A DNA stretch of 33,135 bases from a virus. The position numbers and the translations under genes are program-made. The notes below the pieces were generated by a model, which saw only the letters and a program-made list of their open reading frames with translations, was not told the DNA's origin and made no database searches. Location: the IMG/VR virus record IMGVR_UViG_3300045997_000244, positions 1-33,135 of that record, one strand, 5' to 3'. Within the stretch, counting starts at the first letter, position 1, and each line of letters begins with the position of its first letter. This document shows, piece by piece, positions 1 to 27,320 of this stretch.

Positions 1-825
1 AGTATTAAAGATAAATTAGAAGCAATGTTTGCTTTCGTTCATTTCTGTTTACCTGAAAATTCACGTGAAAAACGTGCGGAACATGCAATCAGAAGCAAAA
101 AATATGGGACAGAAAAAAAGGAACAGAACAATATTGGCCGATGGAGCAATAAACTGGATGCTTACAATATTAATACGGATAAAATTGAAAAGCTTTCACA
201 GGCCCAATTAATAGCTGATGATAAACATTCTATTGCATCACATAACCACGCACCTCACAGTAAAATTAAGGGCAAAACTCGTTGGCAGGTTCTCATGGAA
301 AATCAAAACCCTGATTATCCCAAACCACAGAAACGCATTTTATATAAATATATTGGAATTCCCACAATAACGAGTATTCGCAATAACGATTATGTTCGTG
401 TACAATACGCTGATTACGCTATCGAAACCACAAATATTTTAGCGAGACTCAAACCAAATAATAAGGATGTAACTGCATTTTGGATGCCAACTGAAAACGG
501 CGATATCCCTGAGGTCTATTTATACCAGGATGACAAATTCCTTTGCCGTGCAACAAAATACGATAATTATAACGAGGCACTTGCCGAACGTACCGAACGC
601 GATGAAGAAATTAGGATAGAACAGGCCAAACGTCAGGCACACCACCGCAAAGAAGTTAAAGAAGGTATTCAGGCCAAAGTGGCTAAGGTTGTGATTATCG
701 AAAACAACATGGATTACAAGAAAATTGAGCCAGTACTGGTAACCGCCCCGCTTGAAATTACCGAAAACAAAAGCGATTGGGAATTCGATGACGATGACTA
801 TGTAAACAAAGCATTAGATTTTTAA
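1..825 (+). CDS. Mu-type DDE transposase (MuA-like), C-terminal part
   Basis: The frame is open from the first base, so the gene is cut by the window edge and the apparent ATG at 25 is internal. About 274 residues are visible. They correspond to the end of the catalytic core and the C-terminal beta-barrel and tail of Mu/Rve-type transposases. Typical features are the segment around FWMPTENGDIPEVYLY, the following DKFLCRA strand, and a charged helical stretch (EALAERTERDEEIR) ending in an acidic tail. The DDE residues are not in view. In Mu this protein cuts and joins phage ends during integration and replicative transposition, and its C-terminal tail contacts MuB. The MuB-like gene follows 27 bases downstream, which supports the call. 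Confidence 0.85.
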   Translation, partial: SIKDKLEAMFAFVHFCLPENSREKRAEHAIRSKKYGTEKKEQNNIGRWSNKLDAYNINTDKIEKLSQAQLIADDKHSIASHNHAPHSKIKGKTRWQVLMENQNPDYPKPQKRILYKYIGIPTITSIRNNDYVRVQYADYAIETTNILARLKPNNKDVTAFWMPTENGDIPEVYLYQDDKFLCRATKYDNYNEALAERTERDEEIRIEQAKRQAHHRKEVKEGIQAKVAKVVIIENNMDYKKIEPVLVTAPLEITENKSDWEFDDDDYVNKALDF

Positions 826-852
826 ATATATCATTCACTAAACTACAACATT

Positions 853-1725
853 ATGATTACACTTGAATTTAAACGCAGAATTTTGGACGCTATTAAACAG
901 CGCAAAGTTAATTACACCAGCGACGCCAAATTTTCGATTGTACTTGGTATCAATAATGCTCAGTTATCCCGCATCCAAAAAGGTGACATTGAAAACGTGC
1001 TATCCGATAGTAAATGGATAAGCCTTGCACGTAGGTTAGATGTACAGTTCGGTAACAATAATGCACTGGTTGCCGCCAAAACTCCGGTATACGAATTTAT
1101 TACCACACAATTAACGCAATGTCAAGACAAATCAATGAGTTTTATACTTTGCGATTTGGCCGGAATTGGTAAAACATTCGCCGCCCGAGCGTACGTACGT
1201 GAGCATAGCAATGCAGTTTATATTGATTGTAGCCAGGTTAAGAGCAAACAAAAACTTATCCGCGCTATTGCAAAGGAGTTTGGTATCACTTATACCGGAC
1301 GCTACCACGAAGTTTATGACGATCTTGTTTATTATATCCGTTCAATACCAGGTGCGCTGGTTATAGTTGATGAGGCTGGTGATTTGGATTACGCTGCTTT
1401 TTTGGAACTGAAAGCGCTTTGGAATGCTACCGAGTTTTGCTGTGCCTGGTACATGATGGGCGCCGATGGACTTAAAGCAAAAATTGAAAGCAACCTTGGA
1501 CGTAAAAAAGTAGGATATGCAGAATTGTTTCGCCGCTATGGAGAGCGCTTCCAGAAAGTGACGCCTGATGGAAAAGCAGACATGGACAAATTTGCCCGCA
1601 AGCAGATTGCACTCGTAGCAAAAGCCAACGGTTTTGATAATGTTCAGGAACTGTATGCCAAAACCGGAGGTTCACTCTCCCGTCTTTATATTGAAATACA
1701 AAAACTTAAAAACGCCGCAGCATGA
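853..1725 (+). CDS. MuB-like AAA+ ATPase, transposition target selector
   Basis: This 290-aa protein matches MuB in size and gene order (Mu MuB is about 312 aa). Residues 1-70 form a helical, HTH-like DNA-binding region (NNAQLSRIQKG). A P-loop lies at about 101-108 (DLAGIGKT), with Asp in place of the usual first Gly, and Walker B at 168-174 (ALVIVDE). In Mu, MuB polymerises on target DNA with ATP, activates MuA and gives target immunity. The start at 853 follows an A/T-rich leader with no clear Shine-Dalgarno, as is usual in Bacteroidota. Its TGA overlaps the next ATG (ATGA), so the downstream gene is probably translationally coupled. Confidence 0.9.
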   Translation: MITLEFKRRILDAIKQRKVNYTSDAKFSIVLGINNAQLSRIQKGDIENVLSDSKWISLARRLDVQFGNNNALVAAKTPVYEFITTQLTQCQDKSMSFILCDLAGIGKTFAARAYVREHSNAVYIDCSQVKSKQKLIRAIAKEFGITYTGRYHEVYDDLVYYIRSIPGALVIVDEAGDLDYAAFLELKALWNATEFCCAWYMMGADGLKAKIESNLGRKKVGYAELFRRYGERFQKVTPDGKADMDKFARKQIALVAKANGFDNVQELYAKTGGSLSRLYIEIQKLKNAAA

Positions 1726-1883
1726 TTGAGATTGAAAAAAGAAACGGAAAATGGGAAGCAAGTTTTGCATGTGGTTTAATAGACTATGCTGACACTCTCC
1801 AAGATTTATTTGGAACGCTCAATGCAAGAGGTAAGGAAATAGAAGAGGAAGTCGAAGATTTCATAAAAGACAACGAATCATGA
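1722..1883 (+). CDS. Small acidic protein between the two ATPases
   Basis: This 53-aa reading frame begins at the ATGA that ends the MuB-like gene and ends at the ATGA that begins the next ATPase gene, so it is stop/start coupled on both sides. That arrangement, rather than homology, is the reason to believe it is real. The N-terminus is mixed charge (MIEIEKRNGKWEA) and the C-terminal half is an acidic helix rich in Glu and Asp. There are no cysteines in a metal-binding pattern and no membrane segment. I do not recognise the family. It may be a partner or adaptor for one of the flanking ATPases, but this is inference from position only. Confidence 0.65.
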   Translation: MIEIEKRNGKWEASFACGLIDYADTLQDLFGTLNARGKEIEEEVEDFIKDNES

Positions 1884-2509
1884 GACAAAAACGCTCACTT
1901 TCCGCACAGGAGTTACTTAACATGCGGTTTAAAGTAATGGATTTCGATGGCGAATTTCTTAAACTTTTTGGCAAGCCTGAAATGAGTGGTTGCTGGATTA
2001 TATGGGGTGAGAGTGTAAACGGTAAAACCTCTCTTATGCTGCAATTGTGCAAGTATTTAACAAGGTTTGGCCGCGTGGTAGTAGATTCGATAGAGGAAGG
2101 TTACAGCCAAAGTTTAAAGATTGCCTGTATTGACCATGGCATGACAGAATGTGGCAGCCGGTTTCAGGTACTACACAAGGAAAGTTTGGAAGACCTTGAA
2201 ATTAGACTTGGAAAAAGGAAAGGCCCCGATATCATAATAATAGACTCCATCCAATATACCGATTTAACTAAGAAAACAGCAAAAGAGTTTATTGACCGGT
2301 GGCCTAAAAAGCTTTTCATTTTCGTAAGCCACGCTAAGGGCAAATTGCCCGAGGGCCATACTGCTAATAAGGTACGTTACCACTCGAATGTTAAAATAAG
2401 GGTAGAAGGTTACCGCGCTAAAATAGAATCCCGCTACGGGGGCGATAAGTCACTTTATTATACAATTTGGTACGAAGGTGCTAAGGAATATTGGGGGGAT
2501 ATATTATGA
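1880..2509 (+). CDS. RecA/KaiC-like P-loop ATPase
   Basis: The protein is 209 aa. A classic Walker A is at residues 43-50 (GESVNGKT) and a Walker B at about 117-122 (DIIIIDS), followed by a predicted sensor-like strand IFVSHAKG. The layout of short N-terminal helix, P-loop and later basic C-terminus (KVRYHSNVKIRVEGYRAKIESRYGG) resembles single-domain RecA/RadA/DnaB-core ATPases of phages. The likely role is an ATP-driven DNA-binding step in phage replication or recombination. The gene is coupled by ATGA overlaps to the 53-aa gene upstream and to the radical SAM gene downstream. The exact subfamily cannot be fixed by eye. Confidence 0.75.
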   Translation: MRQKRSLSAQELLNMRFKVMDFDGEFLKLFGKPEMSGCWIIWGESVNGKTSLMLQLCKYLTRFGRVVVDSIEEGYSQSLKIACIDHGMTECGSRFQVLHKESLEDLEIRLGKRKGPDIIIIDSIQYTDLTKKTAKEFIDRWPKKLFIFVSHAKGKLPEGHTANKVRYHSNVKIRVEGYRAKIESRYGGDKSLYYTIWYEGAKEYWGDIL

Positions 2510-3303
2510 GTAAAATATTTCATGGTAAGGCCATTTATAATCCATCCGGCAAGGCTGGCGAATATAGTTACTGGGCTGCAAATTTCTACAATGGATGTAG
2601 TGCAAAATGTGATTATTGCTATAACAGGCATGGGAGAAGTGCAAAGGTTGTGGGGCGTGATGTCTCAACATTAAAAAAATCGTTAATCGATGAAGATAAT
2701 GCATTACATATCTTTAAAAAAGAAGCAATGCAAAATAGAGATGAACTACAAAAACATGGATTATTTTTCAATTTTGTAAGTGATCCGTGCTTACATCAAA
2801 CTATCGATTTGAATTATAGGGCTATTCTACATTGTGAAACTCATAATATTCCAGTTAAAATACTAACAAAACAAACATGGTGGTTATCAGAAATTAAAGA
2901 TATTGGATTTTTGCCTAATAATGTAGCTTATGGCTTCACCCTCACAGGTCATGACGAACTTGAACCAGGGGCCGCAACTAACGCAGAACGTATTGAAGCA
3001 ATGAAAAAACTACATGACGCAGGGTTTAAAACGTGGGCAAGCATTGAGCCTATTATTGATTTGGATTCGAGTTATGATATGATTATTAAAACTATTGAAT
3101 TCTGTGATTTTTATAAAATTGGCCTGCAAAGTGGGAAAAAATATTCCTTTAATAAGCTGCATACTTTTACATCAAACTGTCTAAGAATGTTGTGTTATGC
3201 TTATGAAAAAAAGGTGTATTTCAAAGATTCTTTGCTCAAGAAACTAGATATAAATAGAGATACTTTACCCTCAAATTGTGTAACGCGAGATTTTAACCTA
3301 TAA
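2506..3303 (+). CDS. Radical SAM protein, SplB/DUF5131-like
   Basis: The start at 2506 is preferred over an in-frame ATG at 2491 because it forms an ATGA overlap with the previous stop, giving 265 aa. The radical SAM iron-sulfur motif CxxxCxxC is at Cys31, Cys35 and Cys38 (NGCSAKCDYCYN). Downstream blocks are typical of the spore-photoproduct-lyase-like/DUF5131 group: VSDPC near 91-95, ILTKQ at 119-123, GFTLTGHDELEPGAA at 143-157, ERIEAMKKLHDAGF at 161-174 and an IEPII strand at 180-184. Enzymes of this superfamily cleave S-adenosylmethionine to start radical chemistry. The substrate here is unknown. Repair or modification of DNA or nucleotides is a guess based on SplB similarity and on the replication-gene neighbourhood. 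Confidence 0.85.
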   Translation: MSKIFHGKAIYNPSGKAGEYSYWAANFYNGCSAKCDYCYNRHGRSAKVVGRDVSTLKKSLIDEDNALHIFKKEAMQNRDELQKHGLFFNFVSDPCLHQTIDLNYRAILHCETHNIPVKILTKQTWWLSEIKDIGFLPNNVAYGFTLTGHDELEPGAATNAERIEAMKKLHDAGFKTWASIEPIIDLDSSYDMIIKTIEFCDFYKIGLQSGKKYSFNKLHTFTSNCLRMLCYAYEKKVYFKDSLLKKLDINRDTLPSNCVTRDFNL

Positions 3304-3308
3304 CAGAT

Positions 3309-3728
3309 ATGAAAACCACAGACAAACAATCGCTCCTACTCAAGAAATTCCACACCATATGCTCTATTGCGGGCATTAAAAAAGAGGCTAAAGACCTAAT
3401 GGTTGCATCCTTTGGCGTGGAAAGCTCCCGCGATTTAAACGAAAAACAACTTAGCGAACTTATTGACGCTATAAACCGCGAACCTGAACAATGGCGTAAG
3501 CGTGTAATGGCTTCCATAGGTGCATGGCTAAGAGCTATTAATAAGACGGATAGTGCCGATGTAATTAAAGGTATTGCCTGTCGGGCTGCTCAACTGGAAA
3601 AATTTAACAGTATTCCGGTATCGCGCTTGCGTGATATTTACTACGAATTCAGCAAAAAAGCTAAGACTGTACAAACTACACAGATGGTTAAAGCTGACGA
3701 AATCAATTATTTATCATCTCAAAACTAA
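3309..3728 (+). CDS. GemA/Mu gp16-like regulatory protein (DUF1018-like)
   Basis: The 139-aa protein opens with a helical segment (LLLKKFHTICSIAGIKKEAKDLMVAS) and then FGVESSRDLNEKQLSELI at about 36-52. This pattern resembles Mu gp16/GemA proteins, which carry an N-terminal 'kllH..a...gl..e.y...l...g..S...lt..e...li' block. GemA in Mu influences host supercoiling and gene expression. The position between the MuB/P-loop genes and gam agrees with the Mu early order. The C-terminal half is helical and basic and does not match anything I can name. Residue-level similarity was judged by eye, so the family call is moderate. Confidence 0.55.
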   Translation: MKTTDKQSLLLKKFHTICSIAGIKKEAKDLMVASFGVESSRDLNEKQLSELIDAINREPEQWRKRVMASIGAWLRAINKTDSADVIKGIACRAAQLEKFNSIPVSRLRDIYYEFSKKAKTVQTTQMVKADEINYLSSQN

Positions 3729-3734
3729 ACTATT

Positions 3735-3914
3735 ATGAGCGAACCTGTAATTACTAAGCCCTACAAAACCACGCAAACAGTAATATGCGGTACCTGCCGG
3801 GGCAAAAAACTGATTCTTAATAAACCCTGCGAACGCTGCAAAGGCGAAGGTATGTTATTGCGCGTAAATGAGGGAGTACTGAAACTTTATACCGTTGAGC
3901 ATGATACTGTTTAA
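3735..3914 (+). CDS. Small DnaJ-type zinc-ribbon protein
   Basis: This 59-aa frame has two Cys pairs of the DnaJ cysteine-rich type: C18-G-T-C21-R-G-K and C32-E-R-C35-K-G-E-G. They would bind one zinc ion. In DnaJ-like proteins such repeats support protein-protein contacts, and many phages carry free-standing versions of unknown role. The gene starts seven bases after the previous stop, and its last 14 bases overlap the next gene, so it sits tightly in the early operon. Confidence 0.75.
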   Translation: MSEPVITKPYKTTQTVICGTCRGKKLILNKPCERCKGEGMLLRVNEGVLKLYTVEHDTV

Positions 3915-4113
3915 CTGGATTCGGAAGAAAGCCGCAAAGGATATCAGGATCATGATCCTTTCTGAAATGGCAATGCTTAAGTTTAAACAACAAAGGTATT
4001 GCAAACCCAGAAAAGACAGGGGTGATATTGAAATGTTCTTTCACTACCAGGATAAAATTAAAACACTATCCGACCTGAAGGAAACCATAGAAGAGAGATT
4101 TAGCCTTAAATAG
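3901..4113 (+). CDS. Small basic early protein, unknown
   Basis: The ATG at 3901 gives 70 aa. A TTG six bases upstream is also in frame, but ATG is preferred. The first 14 bases overlap the zinc-ribbon gene. The protein is rich in Lys and Arg (IRKKAAKDIRIM, KFKQQRYCKPRKDRGD) and ends in an amphipathic helix. There is no membrane segment or recognisable motif. Nucleic-acid binding would fit the charge but is not demonstrated. Confidence 0.6.
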   Translation: MILFNWIRKKAAKDIRIMILSEMAMLKFKQQRYCKPRKDRGDIEMFFHYQDKIKTLSDLKETIEERFSLK

Positions 4114-4137
4114 TTTAACCATTTAAAAAGTAATAAA

Positions 4138-4641
4138 ATGTTCACAACAAGAGAAAAGAAAAAAGTTGAAGAGAAAGTTACCTTAAAAGATTCTCAAAAA
4201 ATTATGACTGATTATTCAACTGCCAACACTCAGTTGATAAAGCTTAATGCTGAGATGGAAGAGGAGGTTGCCAAGGTTCGTAAAAAATATGAAACTAAAT
4301 TATTGGTCATTGAATCTCAGAAGAAACTTGCATTTCAAAAACTGGAAATGTTCGCAAAGGATAAGAAAAGCGAGCTATTTGCAAAAAAGAAAACCTTTAA
4401 CATGGCTTCCGGTGCAATAGGGTTCAGAAAAGGTACTCCAAAACTGGAATATGTTGAGGGTTTTACAATTGAAATGATTACCAAAAACCTCAAAAAGTAC
4501 TTACCCAATTATGTGCGCATAGTTGAAGAGCCCGCAAAGGATAAGCTTATAGCTGACAGGGATAACAAAACTATAAATAAGTATTTCGCAAAAGTTGGTA
4601 TCGAAGTTAAACAGGAAGAAACCTTCTTTGTAAAAGCATAA
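4138..4641 (+). CDS. gam: Gam-like DNA-end-binding protein (host-nuclease inhibitor)
   Basis: The 167-aa length is close to Mu Gam (about 174 aa). The first 85 residues form a long charged helix, as in the Gam/Ku-like dimer arm. The family signature ASGAIGFRKGTPKLE lies at about 90-104 and is followed by a helical C-terminal part. Mu Gam is a bacterial Ku homologue that coats double-strand DNA ends and blocks RecBCD-type nucleases. It is therefore expected to protect incoming or transposing phage DNA. The gene is the last before a strong intrinsic terminator, so it probably closes the first early transcription unit. Confidence 0.9.
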   Translation: MFTTREKKKVEEKVTLKDSQKIMTDYSTANTQLIKLNAEMEEEVAKVRKKYETKLLVIESQKKLAFQKLEMFAKDKKSELFAKKKTFNMASGAIGFRKGTPKLEYVEGFTIEMITKNLKKYLPNYVRIVEEPAKDKLIADRDNKTINKYFAKVGIEVKQEETFFVKA

Positions 4642-5274: not shown

Positions 5275-5874
5275 ATGGTTGTATATATATCAGGAAAAAT
5301 GACAGGTTTAGAACCTGAAATTGATAAAAAAAACTTTCAAAAGGCTAAAGAGTTTTTGCAAAATGCAGGATATGATTGTGTGAATCCGATAGACTTGAAT
5401 AATTCAGGTGTAGCATGGATTGATGCAATGAAGGTTGATATCACGGAACTTATGCAATGTAATGCTATTGCAATGTTACCCAATTGGAAGGAATCAAAAG
5501 AGGCTACTATTGAACATTATATTGCATTTAATTTAGGTTTAAAAGTGTTCTATTTAATCGAAATAAGTGGAAACTTAATTCTCTCTCTCACCCAGGACGA
5601 TGCTTTGTTAATATATATCGAAAAAGCCATCGGAATCACATCAGAAATGATAAGGCAGGATACCAAAAATAGAAACATTGCTGATGCTCGCAAAATTTAT
5701 TCAAAGATTGCCCGTGAAATCTATAATAAACAATGGGAAGAAATTGCAACAACGATCAATAGAGATCATTCAACCGCTCAGGCTGCAAGAAATAAAGCCA
5801 ATATACTCCTGCAAAGCGATAAGGCTTTTTATATCAAATACGACAAAGTTTTTTCTTTAATTAAATCTGCTTAA
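5275..5874 (+). CDS. DUF4406 fused to a DnaA domain IV-like DNA-binding domain
   Basis: In this 199-aa protein, residues 1-95 match DUF4406, a nucleoside-2-deoxyribosyltransferase-like fold: YISGKMTG at 4-11, a DITELMQCNAIAMLPNW block and the Glu-containing helix EATIEHYIAFNLGLK. Residues 107-199 resemble the C-terminal domain IV of DnaA, including an ARKIYSKIAREIYNKQWEEIA helix pair and RDHSTAQAARNKA at 163-175, which parallels the DnaA-box recognition signature GRDHSTV. The frame is continuous, so the fusion is real in this sequence. It probably binds DnaA-box-like sites, and any nucleotide chemistry of the first half is untested. Neighbouring genes point to replication. Confidence 0.75.
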   Translation: MVVYISGKMTGLEPEIDKKNFQKAKEFLQNAGYDCVNPIDLNNSGVAWIDAMKVDITELMQCNAIAMLPNWKESKEATIEHYIAFNLGLKVFYLIEISGNLILSLTQDDALLIYIEKAIGITSEMIRQDTKNRNIADARKIYSKIAREIYNKQWEEIATTINRDHSTAQAARNKANILLQSDKAFYIKYDKVFSLIKSA

Positions 5875-25461: not shown

Positions 25462-26045
25462 AAATCTGGATTATTGCAATAGTTACACTTACTATAATGG
25501 CAATAGCCGGATTTGCCGGGTATACGATAGCCAATAAAAAATATTCTGCCAGGTTGGATAGGGCACAAACTAATTTTAACTCAATGGTTTTGGGTATTCG
25601 TTATTCATTGGACTCGATGCGAACCGACACAAGAGCCATGAAAATGACTCAGTACGAATTAAAACAAAGTTTCCCGGGATTCAAGGAGGAACTTAAACAG
25701 GAATTTGGAATTGAACTCAGGCGCGCCAAATTCCTGATGAACACACAAACGGAATATAACAAGGAATTTAAGGTGTTTGTAAGAGATTCATTTCAAAGCA
25801 AAGAAGCTGAATACGCTATCTACCAAGATAAATGGAATTCTTTTAAATGGTTAAAACCAATTGGCGCCGATACAGCAACCGTAAACATTCATATTAAAGA
25901 TAGTGCGTTTGCAGTACTTCACAGGGTGCCGCGCTCATTTTCGGAGTGGTGGCACGGTCAACCTAAGAAATATGATTTAACGATTAAGAACTATAACCCG
26001 AATTCAATAATCAGTTACCAGAGACTTATTCAATTAACGCGTTAA
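25458..26045 (+). CDS. Spanin-like inner-membrane protein (DUF6549-like)
   Basis: This 195-aa protein has an N-terminal membrane anchor at 3-24 (IWIIAIVTLTIMAIAGFAGYTI), then a charged periplasmic part (DRAQTNFNSM, LKQEFGIELRRAKFLMNTQ) and a beta-type C-terminus (DTATVNIHIKDSAFAVLH, WWHGQPKKYDLTIKNYNPN). Proteins of this look follow holins in Bacteroidota phages (DUF6549). An i-spanin role in outer-membrane disruption fits the lysis cassette but is inferred from position. No separate outer-membrane partner or nested lipoprotein frame was found. Confidence 0.6.
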   Translation: MKIWIIAIVTLTIMAIAGFAGYTIANKKYSARLDRAQTNFNSMVLGIRYSLDSMRTDTRAMKMTQYELKQSFPGFKEELKQEFGIELRRAKFLMNTQTEYNKEFKVFVRDSFQSKEAEYAIYQDKWNSFKWLKPIGADTATVNIHIKDSAFAVLHRVPRSFSEWWHGQPKKYDLTIKNYNPNSIISYQRLIQLTR

Positions 26046-26593
26046 TGAGTGAATTAATATCATACGAAGTAATAGTACAACGAGATCAAAGCTTGTGGGA
26101 CATAGCCATAGTGGAATATGGTTCCATTGAAGGGCTTTTTTCGTTAATTACTTTGAATGGGTTTGACTCATTGGATCAAGTTCCTGATCCCGGGGAAAAG
26201 ATCATTATTGATTCATCGCTGGTTTTTAAAAATAAGTTCGAAGACAGGAAAGTAACTGAGCAAAAGGTTACGAACTATGATGCTATTGTGCAACATGACC
26301 AAAGTATTTGGGACTTGGCAATACAGGAATATGGCTCTATTGAACAAATGTTTATCATGGTAAGCGATAATAAACTATTAAGCAGCCTGGATGTAATTCC
26401 AACACCTGGTGATAAGCTTTCAATACGCACTGATTTTGACGGTGATTACGCACTGATGAATTATTTTAGAAATAAACGCCAGGTGGCAACCAATGCCATT
26501 ATTGTTGATTTAAATGGTGTTGTAGTTACCGGAGTTTGGAGGGATGACGCATTGTGGGGAGACAATGCACCCTGGAGAGATAATCCAATTTAA
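26045..26593 (+). CDS. Tail protein with two LysM-like repeats and a Trp/Asp C-terminal tag
   Basis: In this 182-aa protein, residues 7-55 and 78-128 are tandem copies of a LysM-like module (IVQRDQSLWDIAIVEYGSIEG and IVQHDQSIWDLAIQEYGSIEQ, both ending in a P.PG.K.II strand). Similar modules (P2 gpX-like) join hub and tube. Residues 130-160 link to a C-terminal tag, VWRDDALWGDNAPWRDNPI, which is nearly repeated at the end of the next protein. The start overlaps the spanin-like stop by one base. It returns the operon from lysis to tail assembly. Confidence 0.7.
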   Translation: MSELISYEVIVQRDQSLWDIAIVEYGSIEGLFSLITLNGFDSLDQVPDPGEKIIIDSSLVFKNKFEDRKVTEQKVTNYDAIVQHDQSIWDLAIQEYGSIEQMFIMVSDNKLLSSLDVIPTPGDKLSIRTDFDGDYALMNYFRNKRQVATNAIIVDLNGVVVTGVWRDDALWGDNAPWRDNPI

Positions 26594-26603
26594 TTTAACT
26601 GAA

Positions 26604-27320
26604 ATGAGAAGTAATTATACAAAAAATAACAGCATTTATTTGCTAAACGGCATCGATCTGGCCACTTTAGGTATAACAGTTGAAGAGGCTGGAACCGGAT
26701 TTCTTACACTACCACCTCGCAATCCGGGTACACAAAATAATTTGCCCGGAATCGGCTTTCTACCAAGGAAACCACAGATTACTTTTAAAGTAAGCGGTGA
26801 CAATTATTTTGATTTACAGATTAAGATTAACATGCTGTACAATCAATTGAGTAAACCCGGTTTGCTTTATTTAAAAATAGCCGGTATACCTAAATTGTAC
26901 CTGGTATATGTAAATGATGAAGTAATTCCGGAACATTATTCTATTGATTCTGTGGGGTGTTCGGTTCATATTACTGTCAATTTTATAGAGCCATATCCAT
27001 TCACACGCCAGTTTTATACACAATTAGACGAAACCTTACAAGTTGAGTTTCAATTTAATTCAACAAAACCCGTAATAATTGACTGGGGTGATGGCACGTC
27101 CAGTATTGCGCCAATCGGTGAATCAATAGGTCACGAATACGATGAGAATGGTACCTATGCAATAGTTGTATATGGCGATATTGATGGCGTTAACTCAATT
27201 AGCCCCACAGGTGCAATTGATATCAATAGTTTATATTTTCCCGGTTCCGTAGGTATGGGTGTATGGAACGACGGGGCCTTGTGGGACGATGGCGCACCCT
27301 GGAGAGATTATCCAATTTAA
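26604..27320 (+). CDS. Dit-like tail protein with PKD domain and Trp/Asp C-terminal tag
   Basis: The ATG at 26604 is used because an upstream in-frame ATG at 26544 lies inside the previous gene. This gives 238 aa. Residues 10-140 (LNGIDLATLGITVEEAG, PPRNPGTQNN, FLPRKPQITFKVSGDN, VNFIEPYPFTRQF) resemble distal-tail/Dit-like beta proteins. Residues 155-200 form a PKD-like domain (VIIDWGDGTSS, GHEYDENGTYAIVVYG), and the last 19 residues repeat the tag of the preceding protein. It is probably a baseplate periphery or adhesion-support protein that holds fibres. The exact role is inferred. Confidence 0.6.
   Translation: MRSNYTKNNSIYLLNGIDLATLGITVEEAGTGFLTLPPRNPGTQNNLPGIGFLPRKPQITFKVSGDNYFDLQIKINMLYNQLSKPGLLYLKIAGIPKLYLVYVNDEVIPEHYSIDSVGCSVHITVNFIEPYPFTRQFYTQLDETLQVEFQFNSTKPVIIDWGDGTSSIAPIGESIGHEYDENGTYAIVVYGDIDGVNSISPTGAIDINSLYFPGSVGMGVWNDGALWDDGAPWRDYPI

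Follow-up and report, generated by a model that had tools for sequence, protein, structure and literature searches.

Do genes that are joined stop to start also work together? The question is raised by a 33,135-base virus record (hereafter the window), in which ATGA overlaps link a gene for a MuB homologue to three successors, encoding a 53-aa protein, a RecA-fold ATPase and a radical SAM protein (rSAM). A sequence-only reading had described the three overlaps, which we found exactly at 1722, 1880 and 2506, and had proposed that the four coupled genes act together. The comparisons presented here point to a different arrangement, to which we assign a probability of about 0.65: a conserved MuA/MuB/ATPase core would have received two inserted accessory genes, the 53-aa open reading frame (ORF) and rSAM, with rSAM acting independently of transposition.

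Layout of the early operon

Every gene from MuA through Gam (1–4641) lies on the plus strand. The first, already open at the window start, encodes the C-terminal part of a MuA-like transposase (1–825; phrog_310 transposase, 3e-12), and the second a MuB-like AAA+ target-capture ATPase (853–1725) with matches to phrog_296 'DNA transposition protein' (4.4e-39), Pfam AAA_22 (2.8e-12) and PADLOC TnsC (5.4e-8). The 53-aa orphan ORF (1722–1883), with an ATGA overlap at either end, separates MuB from the RadA/RecA-fold ATPase (1880–2509; phrog_6891 'ATPase', 4e-71), which is followed by the gene for rSAM, a protein with a predicted spore photoproduct lyase (SPL)-like fold (2506–3303; Radical_SAM, 1.2e-7). 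Further downstream are a GemA-like gene (3309–3728; phrog_286, 3.1e-6; Pfam GemA, 0.022) and a gene for a Mu Gam-like end-protection protein (4138–4641; Pfam Phage_Mu_Gam, 9.6e-25). Together these genes probably form the early operon of a Mu-like Bacteroidota phage.

Two further plus-strand genes of this region were observed. The gene at 3735–3914 encodes 59 residues with a DnaJ-like zinc motif. Bacteroides phage p00 has what is annotated as a DnaJ chaperone gene immediately downstream of this ATPase, and small zinc proteins may therefore recur in the MuB/ATPase operon. At 5275–5874, a single protein combines a DUF4406 domain (4.5e-24) with a C-terminal helix-turn-helix of the DnaA type (5.9e-10); this fusion is unexpected in a Mu-like early region.

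We then considered how much weight the ATGA junctions can bear. Among 42 same-strand junctions checked in the window, 10 have a 4-base or 1-base overlap, the 4-base form accounting for 5 of these. In 42 such junctions, a run of three tight (4- or 1-base) overlaps is expected by chance about 0.5 times and a run of three 4-base overlaps about 0.07 times, and the succession seen here is only mildly unusual. Since overlaps are frequent in the window, tight overlap alone is weak evidence of shared function.

A RadA-like ATPase beside MuB

Comparison with related phages separated the coupled genes into two classes. This RadA-like ATPase was found downstream of MuB in 82 of 83 Bacteroidota Mu-like loci, from a MuB survey covering the best 80 of 238 matches, and in the sole exception the contig breaks off shortly after MuB. 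Genes on these relatives were called by a simple longest-ORF rule, and most of the surveyed records are metagenomic and of unestablished completeness. The distance between MuB and the ATPase was −35 to +12 bases in 49 of the 82 loci and exceeded 150 bases in 12.

The same association was evident in cellular genomes. Eight strong stand-alone ATPase matches (E < 1e-45) were recovered from 395 Bacteroidota genomes, all of them in Mu-like prophage regions containing MuB; MuB lay within 1.5 kb in five cases and, when a wider context was read, within about 1.9–3.5 kb on the same strand in the remaining three. Most ATPase-profile matches at E 1e-20 to 1e-28 in these genomes fall in longer frames (mostly 420–590 aa) and were left out of the family counts. 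Frames of that length with a RadA-like ATPase core also make up most of a set of Bacteroidota genome loci (L272–L292) that had no MuB in the short flanks read. Among named phages, Elizabethkingia phage TCUEAP3, Winogradskyella phage Peternella_1 and Porphyromonas phage 013a carry annotations for the MuA–MuB–ATPase trio, as does Bacteroides phage p00 (hankyphage), in which one further gene intervenes. The phrog_6891 'ATPase' of p00 and others belongs to the same family and occupies the same operon place behind MuB; beyond this annotation, our literature search found no study of its function.

The RecA/KaiC-like character ascribed to the ATPase from its sequence was borne out by an AlphaFold model (pLDDT 95.3), in which a RecA-type core matches RadA best (Z 18.4, rmsd 3.0 over 194 residues), followed by KaiC (Z 16–17). 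Walker A (2006–2029) and Walker B (2231–2254) motifs are present on the plus strand, and 53 of 53 aligned sequences retain the Walker A GK, the catalytic E72, D122 and Q125. The phage protein thus shares the RecA-type core, both Walker motifs and the catalytic Glu with the RadA/Sms branch-migration ATPase (PDB 8rxc, 5lkm). Unlike RadA/Sms, it has only 209 residues and lacks the C-terminal Lon-like domain, the structural match stopping at RadA residues 278–280, and it was tied to Bacteroidota Mu-like phages in every case checked.

Judged from these sequence comparisons, the ATPase is a conserved partner of the transposition proteins in Bacteroidota Mu-like phages, and the part of the coupling proposal that concerns MuB and the ATPase is supported. 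To our knowledge, such an ATPase is no part of textbook Mu, yet in Bacteroidota Mu-like phages it seems to be a regular third component of the transposition operon. As the comparison shows, the operon's conserved core consists of MuA, MuB and this small RadA-like ATPase, which is a candidate for a third factor in transposition or replication. Its fold and linkage suggest that it most likely assists MuA and MuB in replicative transposition, for example by acting on target DNA or on the strand-transfer product ahead of replication.

Distribution and placement of the rSAM gene

The rSAM gene showed a different pattern. Scans of IMG/VR and GTDB contigs yielded 127 lineages at 85% identity, the window counted; the others comprise 90 Bacteroidota-type and 36 more distant lineages. 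The three cysteines, whose absence from relatives the sequence-only reading had named as refuting it, are retained, with CX3CX2C kept in 124 of the 126. In whole-record searches in which the positive control worked, the rSAM gene was found in 0 of 46 Mu-like records identified via MuB or the ATPase, and only 4 of 50 rSAM-bearing virus records contained the ATPase with a convincing score.

Five phages, including the window, are Mu-like carriers of rSAM. In all of them it lies downstream of the ATPase on the same strand, so that some benefit of the gene inside a Mu-like operon is possible. Its exact place varies: directly after the ATPase in the window, after a 356-base gap in L010, after GemA and an ASCH-domain gene in L102, and 3–4.5 kb downstream in L148 and L167. 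On the rSAM tree, the Mu label requires five changes for five rows, and the starred branches force at least three, which argues against a single origin of the gene within Mu-like phages. The window rSAM groups with those of L105, a 49.6-kb record without the ATPase, and L098, a 4.4-kb fragment that gives no information on the ATPase.

These data bear on the proposal that rSAM genuinely cooperates with MuB and the ATPase, repairing or modifying DNA at transposition sites. The three successive ATGA overlaps and the position downstream of the ATPase in five Mu-like carriers speak for it. We nevertheless consider it very improbable, given that the gene is missing from every Mu-like record reached via MuB or the ATPase, that most carriers are not Mu-like, that the tree shows no single Mu-like origin, that the place of the gene differs among carriers and that overlaps are common in the window genome. 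The survey of Mu-like phages therefore contradicted a conserved MuB/ATPase/rSAM adjacency and returned a sporadic presence at varying places, the outcome named beforehand as speaking against it. This corrects the notion of a transposition system made up of four genes; from its distribution, rSAM is better described as a roving phage accessory gene whose family occurs mostly in non-Mu phages.

Related operons indicate how the arrangement in the window may have arisen. In three relatives (L020, L021 and L029), MuB, the ATPase and GemA are themselves joined by ATGA, with neither a 53-aa ORF nor rSAM between them, and the GemA-like protein of the window is 44% identical to that of L020. Both genes therefore look inserted. 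The 53-aa ORF matched only itself among the 97 loci compared, family searches for it gave no match, and it is possibly an inserted gene. For rSAM, the distribution, variable place, tree, relatives lacking the gene and low GC3 (0.26, compared with 0.42 for the ATPase and 0.37 for MuB) together indicate an inserted accessory gene that may have arrived by one of several recombination routes. Recombination at stop/start junctions would have added the 53-aa ORF at the MuB–ATPase junction and rSAM at the ATPase–GemA junction, with the ATGA overlaps kept.

Fold, active site and possible substrates of rSAM

The rSAM protein exceeds the curated cut-off of the Radical_SAM superfamily PF04055 (32.5 versus 29.5 bits) and carries the CX3CX2C cluster motif with CxYCY tyrosines at residues 31–38 (2596–2619, plus strand; C31, C35, Y37 and C38, followed by Y39). 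In its AlphaFold model (pLDDT 95.0), the best structural match is SPL (Z 16.4, rmsd 3.3 over 221 residues), and the top six VIA-align rows are all SPL (Z 16.2–16.4); RiPP maturases (SuiB, SkfB), lipoyl synthase and viperin are further neighbours at Z 14–15. Foldseek ranked SuiB chains above SPL by E-value, with a higher TM-score for SPL. A phmmer search of the PDB with the single rSAM sequence gave no match; SPL was found only by a profile of 80 relatives, which aligns with PDB 4fhc (E 0.001).

This alignment places the catalytic Cys140 of 4fhc at F90 of rSAM (codon 2773–2775, plus strand), and the residue is Phe in 80 of 80 aligned members. The column is confirmed by another SPL sequence in the output of that profile search, which shows Ala there, and by 4fhe, described as the C140A mutant. 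In the SPL family, Cys140/141 is the established hydrogen-atom donor. C31, C35, Y37 and C38 are invariant in the 80 members, and Y39 is conserved in 75 and replaced by Phe in 5. SplB and rSAM thus have in common CX3CX2C, the barrel fold and the cluster-adjacent tyrosines, whereas rSAM lacks the hydrogen-donor Cys, is smaller (265 aa), falls under the curated family cut-offs and belongs to a family found mostly in phages and prophages. Its Pfam SPL score was 18 bits, under the cut-off of 27, and its DUF5131 (PF07505) score 25 bits, slightly under 28.9; DUF5131 matched at E 0.001 in 17 of 83 relatives. Over the rSAM barrel, weak profile matches were obtained to the PA0069 family (1.7e-9; 37 of the 360 bits set as cut-off), the Rv2578c family (3.7e-7; 29.5 of 430 bits) and DUF5131 (1.6e-5).

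The description of rSAM as SplB-like therefore holds for the fold and the cluster motif and fails at the catalytic Cys. Because Phe occupies that position throughout, the protein is probably no SPL, and it is unlikely that the family works by the known SPL mechanism. That it might be a photoproduct lyase, or cleave some other DNA lesion as SplB does, would fit its nearest solved fold, the conserved CxYCY tyrosines and the occurrence of SplB-like rSAM proteins in some SOS operons (PMC3765255), but the Phe at the essential position and the low Pfam SPL score make this a decidedly doubtful assignment.

One isolated carrier is Parabacteroides phage PDS1, a lytic non-Mu phage whose gp_34 is a full-length homologue of the window rSAM (43% identical) and is flanked by a single-strand-binding protein gene upstream and an ASCH gene downstream; its function was only guessed in PMC10773633. 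The window rSAM also matches phrog_13321 (4.5e-12). Our literature search on DUF5131, phage rSAM proteins with SPL and Bacteroidetes transposable phages found no functional study.

We examined gene neighbourhoods across the family for hints of function. ASCH-domain genes are present in 30 of the 90 Bacteroidota-type loci, and in 17 of these 30 they lie within two genes of rSAM. Random centres drawn within the same loci gave a mean of 5.9, with none of 5,000 draws as high, although this null slightly favours the observed value because the loci were built with rSAM close to their centre. A phrog_8581 gene was likewise enriched near rSAM (7/9, P 0.001), as, weakly, was a Holliday-junction-resolvase-like gene (6/12, P 0.03). 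PAPS-reductase, VRR-NUC, ParB and YopX-like neighbours showed no significant enrichment, and rSAM itself matched nothing in PADLOC, which was searched for a possible role in defence. In the distant Clostridia-type loci (L208–L256), we observed a tight cassette of a ParB/DUF4417 gene, a gene for a Rossmann-like protein and rSAM, the middle gene immediately preceding rSAM in all 10 cases; the reading of its product from sequence as a methyltransferase found no backing among Pfam or PHROGs families.

Binding of modified bases has been suggested for ASCH domains (PMC7641849), and the enrichment of their genes beside rSAM favours a role in nucleic-acid repair or modification. This link has no direct bearing on the window, as no ASCH gene was found in it, nor in three of the four further Mu-like carriers. 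It would also suit an enzyme that modifies phage DNA against host restriction, comparable in purpose to Mom, as would the phage-wide distribution of rSAM in early regions and the C5-methyltransferase-like genes in 18 of 90 loci. These genes are, however, not significantly closer to rSAM than chance (P 0.08), and the early ORFs of the window that were searched included no recognizable genes for hydroxymethyl bases or other hypermodification, so that we regard an anti-restriction role as unlikely. A nucleic-acid-directed role for rSAM is plausible, but we found no link between such a role and either transposition sites or a Mom-like function, both of which had been suggested.

The substrate might instead be a free nucleotide, a tRNA or a peptide rather than DNA, as the resemblance to lipoyl synthase, viperin, SuiB and SkfB would allow. 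We consider this possible but tentative: SPL ranks first among the structural neighbours, and no precursor peptide or tRNA-modification partner was recognized among the most frequent rSAM neighbours. With modest confidence, we judge a nucleic-acid or nucleotide substrate likelier than a peptide. Within our preferred reading of a conserved core with inserted genes, rSAM would direct a 5'-deoxyadenosyl radical at a putative nucleic-acid base or nucleotide early in infection, for repair or modification, independently of transposition and, in other phages, possibly alongside ASCH-domain proteins. A more specific proposal, which we advance as a long shot, is that the family catalyses an undescribed radical reaction on nucleic acid, with Phe replacing the hydrogen-donor Cys of SPL, as a repair or modification gene spread between Bacteroidota phages and often located beside ASCH genes.

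The rSAM protein belongs to a widespread, uncharacterized radical SAM family of phages that combines an SPL-like fold with an altered active site. Isolated carriers make both proteins testable: PDS1 for rSAM and TCUEAP3 for the ATPase. Elsewhere in the window, two consecutive plus-strand genes (26045–26593 and 26544–27320), which overlap by 50 bases as listed, encode proteins ending in a near-identical motif, GVWRDDALWGDNAPWRDNPI and GVWNDGALWDDGAPWRDYPI.
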